NCBI RefSeq assembly: GCF_000300875.1
Contig: NZ_AMSG01000017.1
Coordinates: forward strand, 1 to 64,000
Direction of reading: 5' to 3'
Length of the DNA stretch: 64,000 bases
DNA from: Galbibacter marinus
GTDB lineage: Bacteria; Bacteroidota; Bacteroidia; Flavobacteriales; Flavobacteriaceae
A model generated the notes under the pieces. It was not told the origin of the DNA and searched no databases. It worked only from the letters and a program-made list of their open reading frames with translations. A program made the position numbers and the translations under genes. The first letter of the stretch is position 1. Every line of letters begins with the position of its first letter. Of this stretch, positions 1-6,701 are shown in pieces.

Positions 1-43
1 GGACTCTTCGTTCACGGCCGTCTACTCGATTAGTGGCTTTTAT

Positions 44-952
44 TCATTTTTTTAGTTTAATCAGCATATATTGGTAAATCTTATACTCTTTCCAAAGGAC
101 TTCACCAAAATTCAACCATCTATCAATAATTTGTTCATTGGAATTAAGCGCCTTTTGTGAAACATTATTTTCACTCAATTCATTCAAAAGAGACATTGAC
201 TCCTTTAGATTAATCATTTCCGTTGTAGGTTGACCATTTCTGAATTTTAAGAAGTCATAAATTGTTTGTCCGAGATTTTGTTCGTTATCAAGTCTAGTTG
301 GTTCGTGAAAGCAGATTTCTTTGCCAGATTCTAAATAGCTATATCTGTGTTTATGCGTTGTAACCTCTGTATGAGGTGGAATAACAATATGCTCTCGAAG
401 AATCGGAATATTTTGAAATCTGATACTCCCCGTTTGAGTTAAGATATTTTGTGTTTGTTCGAAAAAAGGGTCATGTCTATACCAATGCCAAGGTCTCCAA
501 GATAATAAGGAAGACATATGCACTGCTAACAAATATGCTGTTCTATTGAGGAATAATGGTGCTGTGTAAAAAGCCTTTCCTTTTCCTGCTTTATCCAATT
601 TATTTTTCAAATCAAAAAGTATATTGTGCTGGAAATCCTTGTGTTTAGGTTTCTTTGCTCTTAATTCAAAGTATAATGTTCTTGGAGAGCAGTTAGCCTT
701 TAAGGCTTTTCTATCTTTTATGAATTGTGCGGAGCTGTAATCAGGATATGCTAAAGACCTTTTGAATTGAATATATATTGGACTAATAGAATCAATTCCC
801 ACATCAGCTCCATAGATCCTTTCTTCACTCTTGGAAAGAGGAACCATCGCAAAAGGAGCTCTAGGAAAACGAGTAATAGTCAACATACTCTGAACCATAA
901 AACCTACAAGGTCTTCTGTGAAGTCTGGAATTATTTGGTTGGATTTACTCAT
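44..952 (-). CDS. hypothetical protein (302 aa)
   Basis: Long ORF, no family recognised. Confidence 0.7.
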   Translation of the reverse strand: MSKSNQIIPDFTEDLVGFMVQSMLTITRFPRAPFAMVPLSKSEERIYGADVGIDSISPIYIQFKRSLAYPDYSSAQFIKDRKALKANCSPRTLYFELRAKKPKHKDFQHNILFDLKNKLDKAGKGKAFYTAPLFLNRTAYLLAVHMSSLLSWRPWHWYRHDPFFEQTQNILTQTGSIRFQNIPILREHIVIPPHTEVTTHKHRYSYLESGKEICFHEPTRLDNEQNLGQTIYDFLKFRNGQPTTEMINLKESMSLLNELSENNVSQKALNSNEQIIDRWLNFGEVLWKEYKIYQYMLIKLKK

Positions 953-960
953 TTTGTTTT

Positions 961-1100
961 AATTGCCACTAACGTATTTGTATAAGAATAGTGCAGTTTT
1001 GAGTCAGAGGATTTTCCGTAGGAAAATCAGAGTGACCAAATACGCGCTAACTTTTGGTTTTGTACTAAACTACGCATTATTTTTTACGGTGTTGGCAATA
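961..1100. repeat. ~140-bp imperfect palindrome between two orphan genes (cassette-site-like)
   Basis: Outer arms ATTGCCActaACG (962-974) and CGgtgTTGGCAAT (1087-1099). Nested arms AATAGTGCAGTTTTGAG / ACTAAACTACGCATTAT. Central perfect hairpin GATTTTCC-gta-GGAAAATC. Confidence 0.6.
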
Positions 1101-1104
1101 GTTT

Positions 1105-1644
1105 TTAATTCAGATTATAAATTTCTTTAGCATATCTATTTAATGCTGATTTAATTTCGTCTTTAAATTTCGTGTTATTAGCAAGAAACAATATTGAATT
1201 TGATGAAACCATATTTAAAAACAGAAAATCATTTTTAATATTTACAATGTTATAATGTTCAGTAACATTATCTTTTGTGATTAAAATACTATTGTTGTCT
1301 ATAATTAATTCATATTCTGCGCGTTTAACAATTCCGTTTGTTGTAATTAGTAGTTCATTGTTGTTTCTAAAAGTGAAAAGGATGTTATCATTCGGCTCAT
1401 TAGTAATTATCCAGCTGCATCCTGTTAAGTAAGATTTACTAATTTTCTTTTCTATTGATTTTTTAGTTTTATTAAAAGTTGTGTTCACTAATGCTGAAGT
1501 ATTTTCAGTTGATTTATTGAAATTCCGTGTGAAATTGTTGATTTTTTCTTGAGATTTTTGCTTTCCAACTGCTATGTTCCAAATAGCAAAAATTATAGCT
1601 CCGAGTATGATTACGAGTATGATTAATATTATTATGTATTCCAT
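1105..1644 (-). CDS. hypothetical protein with N-terminal transmembrane helix (179 aa)
   Basis: ORF starting MEYIIILIILVIILGAIIFAIWNIAV. Confidence 0.65.
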   Translation of the reverse strand: MEYIIILIILVIILGAIIFAIWNIAVGKQKSQEKINNFTRNFNKSTENTSALVNTTFNKTKKSIEKKISKSYLTGCSWIITNEPNDNILFTFRNNNELLITTNGIVKRAEYELIIDNNSILITKDNVTEHYNIVNIKNDFLFLNMVSSNSILFLANNTKFKDEIKSALNRYAKEIYNLN

Positions 1645-1811
1645 TTTATTTAGATTCTGGTTAGTTTTCTCAAATTATCGCCAACGGCAGTCTGTCTCAA
1701 AACTACCGATTATATTTTAAAAATAGTTGGATTTGGTGTATAAAACAAATTAATTTGATATTGGTTTGTTCTATGGTTAAGGAAGCTTAGAAAGCTTGAT
1801 TTCAAGTTTAA

Positions 1812-2195
1812 CAAGGTAAAAAAGTAACTTTTAGAAAACAGAAACTAGAAAAAGGAACGCTAAAAGGTAATTACTTTACCAAGCGTAGAGATTGTAAGGG
1901 CTGCCCAATAAAACAGCAATGTATTGGCAAGAGTCATGAAAATCGGATCAATATTACCGCTTACCGGAAAGAATATGAACGTAATATAGCTCGGGTAAAC
2001 AGTCCACAGGGACGTTATATGAAAGCCAAGCGACAAAGCACCGTAGAGCCCGTTTTTGGAACACTTACCCAGTTTATGGGTCTTAGAAAAATCAATACCA
2101 TAGGCATCAAACAGGCGAATAAGTGTATGCAGCTCGCTGCCATAGCTTACAATTTGAAGAAGTATCTGAAATTCATTGAAAACCAAACTCTTTAA
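1812..2195 (+). pseudogene. IS1182-like (DDE) transposase, C-terminal remnant
   Basis: + strand frame reads ...LKGNYFTKRRDCKGCPIKQQCIGK...GRYMKAKRQSTVEPVFGTLTQFMGLRKINTIGIKQANKCMQLAAIAYNLKKYLKF...*, with the C..C.....C and VEPVFG motifs of the transposase C-terminus. In-frame TAA at 1809 and no N-terminal half. Confidence 0.8.
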
Positions 2196-3418
2196 TTCTT
2201 ACTGATGAAGATTATAATAATTATGAGGGTAGAAATGCTTATTTAGCTGCTAAATTGCTTACAATTTTCATCGAAAATCCAATTATTTTTATTGGATATA
2301 GTTTAGATGATAAGAATATTCAATCAATTCTTAAATCCATTATTAAGTGTTTAACTAAAGAGAAAATTGAAAAATTAAAAGATAGGTTAATATTTTGTCA
2401 ATGGACTCCAAATTCCATTGAAACAGAAATGTCTGATAGTACTTTACTAATATCGGATACAATAATACCTATCAAATTAATAACTACGAATGATTTTATT
2501 GATGTTTATACCGTTTTGGCTAATAATAAGAGAAAACTTCCCATTAAAATTTTAAGGCAGATGAAAGGTATGGTATATGATTTTGTGAAATCAAATAATT
2601 CAAAGTCTAAAATTTATGTAACAGACAATCTTGAAAATATTGAAAACATTCATAATGCAGAGTTTGTTTATGGTGTAGGACTAAAAGATAGGTTTGCAGA
2701 AGTCGGCATAAAAGGAATTGAACTTAAGGATGTTCTTTTAGATTCGATTAAATCTAGGGAATGGGATGCTATAAAAATATCAGAATTATGTTTACCTTTT
2801 TTAAATGGAAAATATATTCCTTATTTTAAGCATTTGAGAGCTGCTGGCTATTTAAATGATAATAATAATATTGATGAAGATAACGAAACAACTGAGTTTT
2901 CTCCAGAATTTATAAAAAAAGTGAATGATGTCAAAACAGAAAGTTTCTACCCATCTGCTAGCTATGTTAGAAAAAAAGAAGAAATTAATAAGAGTTATAA
3001 ATCTTTACATGACTTGATATCAACAAATAATCAAATACATATTTTAATGTACACTCCGTTTAGCAAAGCAAGTCGCCCGGGAGAATACGTGGCATTTTTC
3101 ACCATACAAATACCTACCATGGAAGGTCCTGGAATTGTATTTCTAGGTTGTGACGCCTATAGCGAGTTTGGTTTTCATACTGGTGTTGAAGAAGATGAAT
3201 CCCCTGCAAATATTTTAAAGCATATTTACTTGTTAACTGAGGATGAAAAATTTGTTATCCACAGAGATAAAGGATTTACTTTAGTTCTAGATCGCTATGA
3301 GGAATTATCAGAAAGAATAGAAGGCATCATTAAACCTGTTAATGGTCGATTATTGTTTAATAAAAAGTTTCACGACAAAATTACGAAGCCCATGCGAGAG
3401 GGATTTCTGAAACACTGA
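2196..3418 (+). pseudogene. SIR2-like domain protein, 5'-truncated at IS junction
   Basis: Frame is open upstream of the TTG at 2255: LILTDEDYNNYEGRNAYLAAKLLTIFIENPIIFIGYSLDDKNIQSIL, the C-terminal half of a SIR2-like fold. The N-terminal nucleotide-binding part is absent and the transposase stop lies directly upstream. Confidence 0.7.
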
Positions 3419-3463
3419 AACTATGAGATTCATCAGAAGGAAATAACACTTCAAACAATTAGG

Positions 3464-4909
3464 TTATATCCCTTTAAAAATAGACTGCACTTCCCGGTGG
3501 GTTTTCTGAAAATGCATGGCCAAGTCTGCATCAGAAACCTGATGTTCCTGTTTAGGCTTATCTTTTAAAATGGGCTGTAACTGAAAACATACCTTTTTAT
3601 CCTTTCCATCAGCAAAGGCGATAAATTCCCCTTGTTTTAGTTTAAAGAATATTTCGGCTCTACGTTTAGAAACCTCGCGTTCCCCTTTGGTAATACGGCT
3701 TTCAAAACTCATACCACTACTTTTGCTAATACTTCTAGTGGGCGTTTTAATCATTTCAAAAAAACGTTCATAATATTTAGCGGTATCTGGATCATTCACC
3801 TTTCCAAAAAACTGATACGACAAATTGCTTAAAATAGCCTTGCTCGCCTTATCCCCATATAGCAGATCGTTCTGCACTTTATCCTGCATCACATAGACGG
3901 TACAAATATCATAACTGCGGAGTGTTGCCGGAACACGGTGCATATTGGGCAATTTTAAAGTTGGAGCCTCTTCCATAAGTAAAAACGAGGAGGCTTTACC
4001 CCGTAGGCTCATTTGCTTGATGATAGTATGCATCACCATGGCAATGACAGGCGAATAGGTCGAATCATATTTAGGGTTGTTCACCAAGGCAATTACCGCA
4101 GGGTTTTCGGGGTTATTGATATCCAAAGACACTTCATCTTTAGACAATACGTAAAACAATTTTTTGGAACTGATTTTTTTAAAAGCATTCGCCAAGGTAC
4201 TTTTGACTCCAGCAGTTTGTTTTTCAGATTCAATCCCGTTAATAAAAGCACTCGCCATACTTCGGGAGGTCAGATCGGACTTTAAAAATGCCACTAATTT
4301 TTTGGTATTCAAGGTCTGAAACAAGGCAATAATATGGGGCAGGGTACAGAAATCAGGGTAGGCCGTTTTCATTTTCCATATCATACCACTGAGTAGGCCT
4401 TCCACAGCATCAGAGAAAAATTTATTACTACCGCTATTTTCCGATAGGTTCTGTTCCAATAAGTTTTCCATGAGGACTCGCGACAACTCATTAACACTTT
4501 CCTCGTTGGGCAAATACTGTGGCGCGATAGGATTTAGCCGAAAATGAATCTCATCAAAGGCGATGGTATAAAAAGGCATTTCAACAGCTTTGAACAATGG
4601 AAAGGCCATTTCAGTGAGTTCGAAATCCTTATAATCATGGATGACCCCACAAAAACCATTTTGACTAAAATGTTGCAAAAAATTATAGACCACGCTTTCA
4701 GTTTTACCACTACCTGCCGAACCAATGATAGATGCGCCCCTTCTTATATTATCAATTTTAAAGTTGCCGTTTTTTAGTTTGAAGCGCACCTTGTATTTCT
4801 TATGAATTTGTTCCTTTTTTTCACCATAAAAAAGTCCATACAAAACAGCCCCCACAAATAATATTGGAGAAACAATATACAGGATGATATGTTCAAGCTG
4901 CCAATTCAT
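3464..4909 (-). CDS. TraG/VirD4-like type IV coupling protein (mobilization ATPase)
   Basis: Walker A GSAGSGKTES, Walker B-like SFLLMEEAPTLKLPNM, N-terminal TM segment. 4-bp overlap with relaxase gene. Confidence 0.85.
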   Translation of the reverse strand: MNWQLEHIILYIVSPILFVGAVLYGLFYGEKKEQIHKKYKVRFKLKNGNFKIDNIRRGASIIGSAGSGKTESVVYNFLQHFSQNGFCGVIHDYKDFELTEMAFPLFKAVEMPFYTIAFDEIHFRLNPIAPQYLPNEESVNELSRVLMENLLEQNLSENSGSNKFFSDAVEGLLSGMIWKMKTAYPDFCTLPHIIALFQTLNTKKLVAFLKSDLTSRSMASAFINGIESEKQTAGVKSTLANAFKKISSKKLFYVLSKDEVSLDINNPENPAVIALVNNPKYDSTYSPVIAMVMHTIIKQMSLRGKASSFLLMEEAPTLKLPNMHRVPATLRSYDICTVYVMQDKVQNDLLYGDKASKAILSNLSYQFFGKVNDPDTAKYYERFFEMIKTPTRSISKSSGMSFESRITKGEREVSKRRAEIFFKLKQGEFIAFADGKDKKVCFQLQPILKDKPKQEHQVSDADLAMHFQKTHREVQSIFKGI

Positions 4910-5940
4910 ATGCCAATAGATCCAGATTCAATAGCCTTACCAATGCCTTTTTTCAGGGTGTTAATGGCTTTCATAGTGAGTTGGAGTTTATTGGTAGGGA
5001 TACTGAGTAATGATGTATTCACGCCTGTTTTTTGCAGCAGTTTAAAAGCCATTGCCCTTTCGTTTGTAGGTAGTTTGGTAATCATGGAAAAATACTGCTT
5101 GGGGTCTTTTAAAAAGGTTTTACGGGCGGTGTAAGATTCCACATAATTGCGTTTGTAATTGAATAGGGTATCAAAGGTTTTTTCGGCATTCTTATAAAAA
5201 GCATCCCGATCGAATCCGCGCTTTACAGTTTTGCCATTCATTTCTACTTCAGAAGCTTTGTATTTGCTTCCCGGAGACAAGCTATAACGATTTGATGCAT
5301 CTTTGCGACTGACAATAATATGAATATGGCTTTGAGGTCCGGGCTTAGGCATATCTCTAACAATACGTTTACCATGCAATTGATATGGTGCTTCACGTTC
5401 CAGACGCTCAATGGCTTTTTGCAGCTTTTTGATATCGCCTGCCGTTTCTCCACGCTGAATGCTTCGCATCTGTAGTTTTAACTCTAAGATTTTAGTGGCA
5501 TAAGATTGGTTTTCTTGAATTTCTTTATCCGAACCTTTAAAGGTGCGTTGGCGTTCCACTTTGGCGAAATATTTAATATCATCGATATTGACTGGTTTCC
5601 CATCGATGTCCCGGTTAAAAGCTTTAGCGTACTCTTTCATGGCTTCCCTTGTGTATTGTTTTAAAGCTTCAGGAGAATCCTGAATAGCTTTCAGCTCACG
5701 CTGACTTGGATTCAGGGTAATGGAATAAAATTTGGGCTCTGTTTTTTTTAGTTTAGCCGTATTGTTATCAATTTCTTTGATGACCTGTTCAGCGGAGATT
5801 TCATTATGATGTTGATCAAAAAAATGCTCTAGTTCAGGCATGGGTTTCCCTTCATTCTCCTTTTCGAGATAGTCTATAAAAGCGGCAGCACTTTGACCAA
5901 AGTTTCCACTAAGACTTTGTGCGGTGATGGTGATGTACAT
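4906..5940 (-). CDS. Bacteroidota MobB-like relaxase (DUF5712-like)
   Basis: N-terminal MYITITAQSLSGNFGQSAAAFIDYLEKEN; HxH motif SHIHIIVSRKD; located between BfmA-like and coupling protein genes. Confidence 0.8.
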   Translation of the reverse strand: MYITITAQSLSGNFGQSAAAFIDYLEKENEGKPMPELEHFFDQHHNEISAEQVIKEIDNNTAKLKKTEPKFYSITLNPSQRELKAIQDSPEALKQYTREAMKEYAKAFNRDIDGKPVNIDDIKYFAKVERQRTFKGSDKEIQENQSYATKILELKLQMRSIQRGETAGDIKKLQKAIERLEREAPYQLHGKRIVRDMPKPGPQSHIHIIVSRKDASNRYSLSPGSKYKASEVEMNGKTVKRGFDRDAFYKNAEKTFDTLFNYKRNYVESYTARKTFLKDPKQYFSMITKLPTNERAMAFKLLQKTGVNTSLLSIPTNKLQLTMKAINTLKKGIGKAIESGSIGI

Positions 5941-6487
5941 GATTCAATGATTTTTTTATGTTTTCCAATTCATCTTTATCCATATTTAGTTTATGATACC
6001 CTTTCCCAAAAGTTCCTTTCACATGATGCAATCGACTTAGTAGGATATCTATATTATTTTTATACCTGCTCAATTGCTGTTGCATCTCTTCAAATCGGTT
6101 TCGGTAATGTTCCAATTCGGTATCCCTGGTAATGGTTTCAGGAGTACCAAAATCAAAAGCATCTTCAGTCATTTCTATTTCCTCTTGTTCTTCTGATTGT
6201 GTTATTTCCTGAAAGAGCGTATCCAGCATCGCTTTGGTGGGGAGGGTCTGTTGTTTTTCTATGTTCCGAATGATAGCAATCAGGGCATTAATTCGTTTTT
6301 TAGTGTCATCCGCTTTTATTCCAAGATTATCATTAGGGTCAAGATTGTTCCATTTGAAGAAGTTCAACATAGCTTCTAGTGTTTCAGAATGTGATTTGGA
6401 AATATCTTTGGAGAAGACACGAAACCGTTCGGCAATATCTTTTTTGACATTGATCCCTGAGAAGCCGTATGTTGAAAATTTCTTCAT
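5909..6487 (-). CDS. BfmA/BtgA family mobilization protein
   Basis: MKKFSTYGFSGINVKKDIAERFRVFSKDISKSHSETLEAMLNFF, an RHH-like N-terminus typical of BfmA/BtgA; start of the mob operon. Confidence 0.8.
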   Translation of the reverse strand: MKKFSTYGFSGINVKKDIAERFRVFSKDISKSHSETLEAMLNFFKWNNLDPNDNLGIKADDTKKRINALIAIIRNIEKQQTLPTKAMLDTLFQEITQSEEQEEIEMTEDAFDFGTPETITRDTELEHYRNRFEEMQQQLSRYKNNIDILLSRLHHVKGTFGKGYHKLNMDKDELENIKKSLNHVHHHHRTKS

Positions 6488-6701
6488 TTTGCTGCAAAAA
6501 ATTGCCTGTTTATCATGGGTTTCAGAAGTTTTGCTGCAAACTCCTGAAAATCAGTATAATCATCATGGTTGTAATTGATTGAAAATCAATTAATTGAAAA
6601 CAACAAGCAAATCGAAACACCGCATCGCGTGTTACCCTCTTGCTCTTCCGCTCCCGTCCCTAAAAGGGACGAAACCAACAGACATCCACTACCAGTGGAT
6701 G
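6487..6701. other. Candidate oriT / mobilization regulatory region
   Basis: Direct repeat TTTTGCTGCAAA (6487-6498, 6529-6540). Three perfect hairpins with 3-nt loops: TAATTGATT-gaa-AATCAATTA (6572-6592), CGTCCCT-aaa-AGGGACG (6655-6671), CATCCACT-acc-AGTGGATG (6683-6701). Immediately upstream of bfmA. Confidence 0.55.

Follow-up and report, generated by a model that had tools for sequence, protein, structure and literature searches.

Near the start of contig 17 of the Galbibacter marinus genome, which is assembled in 80 contigs, a long imperfect palindrome lies between two genes that lack confident family assignments. The question raised by this locus is whether such a palindrome is a passive repeat or a site at which genes are exchanged. 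An initial annotation of the window (the first 64 kb of the contig, 64,000 nt, which is the whole stretch of DNA considered here) likened it to the attC sites of integron cassettes, with a different sequence, and this comparison is supported by the arrays, unit boundaries and recombinase described below. To judge from the sequence evidence assembled here, the palindrome is very probably the site at which the gene cassettes of an integron-type system in Bacteroidota recombine.

The palindrome and its relatives

The palindrome occupies positions 961-1102 and contains, as had been claimed, a perfect 8-bp central hairpin, GATTTTCC-gta-GGAAAATC. Folded as single-stranded DNA it reaches -19.7 kcal/mol against a shuffle mean of -11.2 (z -2.9), and it is more stable than 197 of 200 dinucleotide shuffles. 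An Rfam search returned nothing above threshold. Copies 75-88% identical to it were recovered by a DNA search of 60 relatives; they are many, clustered and co-oriented.

A covariance model built from 19 copies, termed R1, gave 208 matches in the window and 20 further stretches. The window site itself scores 127.7 bits (E 6e-23), and the copies in relatives fall in the 64-100 bit class. As the initial annotation had proposed for a cassette site, the matches form arrays in which they alternate with unrelated single genes that share an orientation. Strand use is uniform, and all 198 sites on the 16 contigs analysed are co-oriented within their contig. The complete genome G020 carries an array (a) of about 50 sites at ~2,211,805-2,262,820, a second (b) of about 57 sites spanning 69 kb at ~2,723,611-2,792,578, and a small third. 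A more distant second tyrosine recombinase gene is located within array b (G020:C1:2765954-2766826).

Of 151 family genomes, 121 contain sites (R1, E<=1e-4), often with 10-21 matches where no more than 21 candidates were scored per genome. Across the phylum, 54 of 297 genomes contain them (R1, E<=1e-3), some of these from other orders and classes. The named genomes with this kind of locus are mostly Flavobacteriaceae. Integron surveys target IntI and canonical attC, and Bacteroidetes have been reported to be nearly devoid of complete integrons (PMC9024848). Earlier reports from this group held only In0, and IntegronFinder 2.0 reports one complete integron, in Salinibacter ruber (PMC9024848). 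No description of such arrays was found in the open literature searchable through PMC, integron surveys included.

Site anatomy and pairing across the cassette

The sites have a common layout that consists of R'' (with AAC), a 3-nt spacer, a 6-bp L'', a loop, a 6-bp L', a 6-nt spacer and GTT (R'). L'' and L' are perfectly complementary in 83% of sites, with five common alternatives, ATACAC, TTATAC, ATATAC, ATAGCC and TTACAC, and the two boxes covary (5.21 of 6 matches observed, against a shuffled maximum of 4.18). The canonical R boxes RYYYAAC and GTTRRRY were found in only 6% and 8% of 204 sites, respectively.

In the window, the attC-like site (962..1102, from R'' to R') is assigned to the minus strand, based on the R1 match and the strand polarity obtained from cassette analysis, and forms the 3' end of a cassette encoding a 179-aa protein. 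The functional strand is corrected here to minus, in the order gene, palindrome, next gene. Sequence and consensus define R'' at 1091..1101, with AAC at 1093-1091 following a variable box at 1100-1094 and a fixed C opposite G1101. After the 3-nt spacer comes L'' (1082..1087, GTAAAA on the minus strand), which pairs at 5 of 6 positions with L' (980..985, TTATAC on the minus strand), itself 6 nt ahead of GTT; both are assigned from sequence and layout. R' (963..974), again from sequence and consensus, comprises C-GTT (974-971), AGTGGCA (970-964) and an invariant A at 963.

One cassette, ~0.8 kb long and usually holding a single gene, lies between consecutive sites, and the order of the unit in minus-strand orientation is GTT, gene, AAC, site, GTT. 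In 117 of 174 neighbouring site pairs, the 7-nt box that follows GTT at the cassette start and the one that precedes AAC at its end are exact reverse complements, and 41 more pairs match at 6 of 7 positions, so that 158 of 174 reach at least 6/7, compared with ~4% at random. Mean pairing across a cassette is 6.37, versus 2.56 for random boxes and 2.85 across a single palindrome. This complementarity extends from +3 to +13 after GTT, with fixed mismatches at +10 and -1. By this measure the variable end boxes pair across the cassette and not within the palindrome, which is the R''/R' topology of attC. Since the terminal boxes are complementary to each other, the full hairpin exists only when both ends of a cassette meet, as they do in the circular form. 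End pairing also holds in other orders and classes (G263, G221 and partly G333). It is not clean in two stretches, G311 and G005a, where some sites in between were probably missed by R1.

Folding of the circular-cassette form favors one strand. Among 173 distinct sites, predicted energies, on which this comparison is based, make the bottom strand more stable in 98.8% of cases (-28.3 versus -23.8 kcal/mol for the top strand, p 6e-30). On the top strand the fixed mismatches are A.C, whereas the bottom strand has T.G wobbles at these positions. In canonical integrons, the bottom strand is recombined ~1000x better than the top (PMC8946536). For the window site, the bottom strand and predicted folding strand is the plus strand.

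Cassette boundaries

In 204 validated cassettes, the median body is 680 bp with an ORF coverage of 93%, and ORF polarity is 171:5 (p 3e-44). The median distance between GTT and the ATG is 29 bp, and that between the stop codon and AAC is 15 bp. Repeated cassettes reveal where the units begin and end. A 1,560-bp cassette is 100% identical in both G020 arrays, ~0.5 Mb apart. On its 5' side, identity ends at CGTT, where differing preceding sites begin; on its 3' side, the cassette's own site is included and identity ends right after GTT. The other repeated cassettes compared have the same GTT boundaries, including a 92% identical pair from two genera, with resolution limited to the invariant CGTT. 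These divergence points, precise and at a fixed position as the initial annotation expected of a cassette system, put the exchange point at GTT, as in attC sites, and show that the site goes with the 3' side of its gene. A cassette is one gene plus the site at its 3' end, running from the GTT of the preceding site through its own site.

The two cassettes of the window

Because repeated cassettes elsewhere diverge precisely at GTT, we infer that the GTT of the window R' box is an exchange point and the start of a second cassette, whose 302-aa gene (44..952, minus strand) belongs to no known family. A homologue occurs in 1 of 150 other genomes of the family (35% identity; L119), where it too lies between two sites. 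The far end of this cassette is an R'' end at 29..38 (minus strand), identified by eye, in which AAC is mutated to AAT. Its box is complementary to the start box at 6 of 7 positions (AGTGGCA at 970-964 on the minus strand versus AGTGGCT at 32-38), and it accounts for what had been noted as a weakly similar end at the start of the window. The site of the 302-aa cassette is lost at the contig start.

The gene of the 179-aa cassette (1105..1644, minus strand) likewise has no confident family. Homologues were found in 5 of 150 other family genomes, and a 60% homologue from another genus (L121) directly precedes an attC-like site, so the closest homologues of both window genes are in a site setting. 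The second outer arm that had been attributed to a cut-off palindrome copy near 1677-1687 proves to be the start of this cassette, an R' remnant (1675..1686, minus strand, CGTT GGCGATA A) of a site cut by an insertion sequence. Compared by eye, its boxes also pair at 6 of 7 positions (GGCGATA at 1682-1676 on the minus strand versus GGCAATA at 1094-1100).

An IS remnant, the 3' part of a transposase gene by sequence (1687..2190, plus strand), ends at the cassette boundary, and a similar 3' transposase piece is present in L097. With the upstream site cut by this remnant and the downstream site cut by the contig start, the pair is probably stranded and inactive, and the local system a remnant. 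The stretch beside the cassettes (2255-6487) contains an ORF with weak SIR2-like similarity, a TraG-like coupling protein gene, and a gene for a DUF5712 protein with weak relaxase similarity, which points to a mobilisation module. The locus had also been described as an element integrated at tRNA-Pro, but ARAGORN finds no tRNA in the window.

The rest of the host genome contains three more isolated sites (C11:13715, C2:389808 and C19:57244), the first of them after a ParE-like toxin gene. Contig 13 ends with the host's own recombinase of the array group. The stretch upstream of this ORF contains a stop, and the available sequence shows no array.

The array recombinase

The initial annotation had asked for a specific tyrosine recombinase, and one does co-occur with the sites and sits at the array end. 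Its best integrase matches include TIGR02249, which was discarded as a sole identifier, as it has matches in all 14 control genomes; a profile of the array enzymes separates them instead. In the array enzymes, the distance from the KG to the HxLRH motif is 71-72 residues, compared with 113-114 in IntIA and IntI1, and the IntI-specific insert of ~42 residues is absent, the corresponding part being skipped when an array enzyme is aligned to the solved integron integrase 2A3V. This insert is the usual criterion for IntI and has been described as essential for integron function (PMC2426708, PMC8352920, PMC8138268). In a 24-sequence tree, IntI forms a clade (100/99), and a branch with modest support (81/77) separates the array enzymes from the four host background enzymes. 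The best solved-structure match is the Xer-like archaeal XerA, and no IntI scored above the 265-bit cut-off in 13 genomes. Without the insert, outside the IntI clade and below the cut-off, the array recombinase is, on these sequence grounds, not IntI.

An additional domain of ~75 residues is present at the N-terminus of most array enzymes; short forms without it exist in G007, G000 and others. Its predicted structure is confident (pLDDT 87), and Pfam yielded no convincing family for it. SMARCAL1 HARP ranks first both in a sequence-profile search (E 0.16, weak) and in a fold search (E 0.05, probability 0.85, also weak), with XPB chains close behind in the latter (probability 0.80-0.89). Each search is weak, and their agreement is suggestive of a HARP-like domain.

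Position of the recombinase and an attI-like site

The recombinases most similar to integron integrases are found at the proximal array end in G020, G012 (twice), G018, G007, G004, G005 (twice), G030 and G023. Those of G012 C7 and G007 are divergent from the array, and the remaining ones point into it. Array a of G020 and the first G030 array have no adjacent recombinase, and in G001 the contig ends just past the recombinase gene. An independent test used loci chosen by the recombinase alone: of the 51 site matches, 46 were downstream of the enzyme and pointed the same way, and they are spread over 13 of the 15 loci having any match. Loci with such downstream sites include those of Algibacter onchidii, Winogradskyella ursingii, Seonamhaeicola aphaedonensis, Zunongwangia mangrovi and Arundinibacter roseus.

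The start of the first cassette was sought in 16 loci by its pairing with the first detected site. A 7/7 match was found 27-155 bp after the recombinase stop codon in 11 of them. In a twelfth (Seonamhaeicola) the distance is 943 bp, and a first cassette probably went undetected in between; pairing is weaker in the other four. A motif resembling ATATAACnA often precedes the first cassette start, and two paralogous G005 loci that share 96% identity across 2.26 kb part exactly at the first-cassette GTT. A conserved attI-like site is present next to the recombinase at the proximal array end, as in an integron.

The array-recombinase profile splits the enzymes of the family into two score groups. 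With presence set at E<1e-65, and genomes classified by the author from the site and enzyme result tables, 96 of the 151 family genomes have both site and enzyme, 25 the site only, 8 the enzyme only and 22 neither (odds ratio 10.6, p 1e-7). Many array-recombinase genes lie 100-350 bp from a contig end, as would be expected if repeats break assemblies.

Cargo, plasmids and insertion elements

A set of 120 cassette proteins has matches in 62 Pfam families, mostly one protein each. The cargo includes immunity proteins (Imm33-like, WapI, NTF2), ParE/RelE toxins, a restriction enzyme, HerA and PtuA defence proteins, and oxidoreductases. On the Chryseobacterium sp. SNU WT5 plasmid NZ_CP041688.1 (L130), positions 3974-6511 hold a recombinase, a Crp/Fnr-RidA cassette (5294-6381) and a site; going by such loci, the system is also plasmid-borne. 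Array-group recombinases adjoin erm(F) on the Flagellimonas marinaquae plasmid NZ_CP092416.1 (L131) and tet(X3) on the Acinetobacter indicus plasmid NZ_CP041297.1 (L132). On the former plasmid, a dihydrofolate-reductase-family gene is followed by a site (39.7 bits). R1 found no significant site near tet(X3) on the latter, where the nearest site-like match scores 16.6 bits (E 0.21), and tet(X3) was set aside as a cassette.

Insertion elements occur repeatedly between R'' and L'' of sites, at 3126 and 9466 of L097 (in reverse orientation) and in L048/L049 (G007 C13). The L097 insertion encodes an IS1182-like transposase, and 7-8 G007 sites carry ends reading ...TTGTGCAACAGGCACA. They resemble insertion sequences whose target is the attC-like site.

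Alternative explanations

Palindromes that are intergenic and downstream of genes could be passive repeats (terminators, REP/BIME-like elements or MITEs), shuffled by homologous recombination, of which repeats are capable. Homologous exchange would, however, spread breakpoints through the repeat, and neither the exact GTT boundaries nor box pairing across the cassette, nor an attI-like site with a recombinase at the array end, would be expected. This explanation is scarcely credible, and the exact unit ends and cross-cassette pairing argue in particular against a terminator or REP element. The shared anatomy of attI, cassettes, R''-L''-L'-R' layout and bottom-strand folding, together with the TIGR02249 matches, might instead reflect canonical integrons whose IntI was merely missed. 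That is very unlikely in view of the 13 genomes with no IntI above the cut-off, the array enzymes that lack the insert and fall outside the IntI clade, and the canonical R boxes in only 6-8% of sites.

It could also be argued that host XerC/XerD move the cassettes at double-stranded sites, in the manner of pdif modules, and that the adjacent recombinase is incidental. The array enzyme is indeed Xer-like, with archaeal XerA as its best solved match, and several arrays have no adjacent enzyme. But the array enzymes cluster apart from most host Xer-type sequences, their presence tracks that of the sites, their position and direction are fixed, and folding has a consistent strand polarity, which leaves little probability for this account. 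The integron-type system that we prefer has its own points against it. Some arrays lack an adjacent recombinase, 25 of 121 site-bearing genomes have no array-type enzyme above threshold, the enzyme is divergent in two genomes, the host's own enzyme has an upstream stop and no array in the available sequence, and the HARP match is weak.

Proposed mechanism and significance

In the integron-type system proposed here, the bottom strand would fold into a hairpin, to which the dedicated tyrosine recombinase encoded at the proximal array end would bind, possibly helped in recognising or binding folded DNA by its putative HARP-like N-terminal domain, a weakly supported proposal. Exchange at GTT with the attI-like site, 27-155 bp past the recombinase gene, or with another cassette site would then insert, excise and reorder genes. 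The system would work like an integron, but canonical R boxes are rare in it and the IntI insert is absent; we therefore place it among integron-type systems, apart from the IntI integrons. By swapping single genes, it would give an abundant phylum a major route of gene exchange that has gone unnoticed, and would help to account for many orphan genes and assembly breaks. It also makes the need for the IntI insert in folded-site recombination testable.

We lean slightly toward a broader view, that Bacteroidota have their own phylum-wide integron lineage apart from IntI, with an insert-less recombinase, HARP-like recognition of folded single-stranded sites and arrays of superintegron size. If so, single-strand cassette recombination either arose twice or predates IntI, and some mobile resistance genes in Bacteroidota may move by this system.

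Comparison with known systems

Several known systems resemble the Bacteroidota arrays in part. The domains most similar to the recombinase N-terminus, SMARCAL1 HARP and the XPB damage-recognition domain, are top matches with weak statistics, and the proteins that carry them are helicases working on forked or damaged DNA and not recombinases. The pdif modules are moved by XerC/XerD at short, double-stranded dif-like sites. They share modular genes and a Xer-type tyrosine recombinase with the arrays described here, whereas the Bacteroidota sites are long, co-oriented hairpins that have a dedicated recombinase. Clusters of attC lacking integrases (CALIN) are similar to the window pair and to those arrays with no adjacent recombinase, but many Bacteroidota arrays do have one, and the site model is not that of canonical attC. 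In the reverse integron of Treponema denticola, the integrase gene runs with the cassettes. Its gene direction is the same as in the Bacteroidota arrays, though its enzyme is an IntI and theirs is not.

A close parallel is with integrons that have sedentary chromosomal arrays, the superintegrons of Vibrio and others. Both have co-oriented single-gene cassettes with a site at the 3' end and the R''-L''-L'-R' layout, R''/R' pairing within one cassette, exchange at GTT, an attI beside the recombinase, better folding of the bottom strand, and a cargo of toxin-antitoxin and orphan genes. The Bacteroidota arrays differ in that their enzyme lacks the IntI insert, falls outside the IntI clade, mostly points into the array and usually has a putative HARP-like N-terminal domain; their R boxes are not GTTRRRY/RYYYAAC, and they reside in another host phylum.
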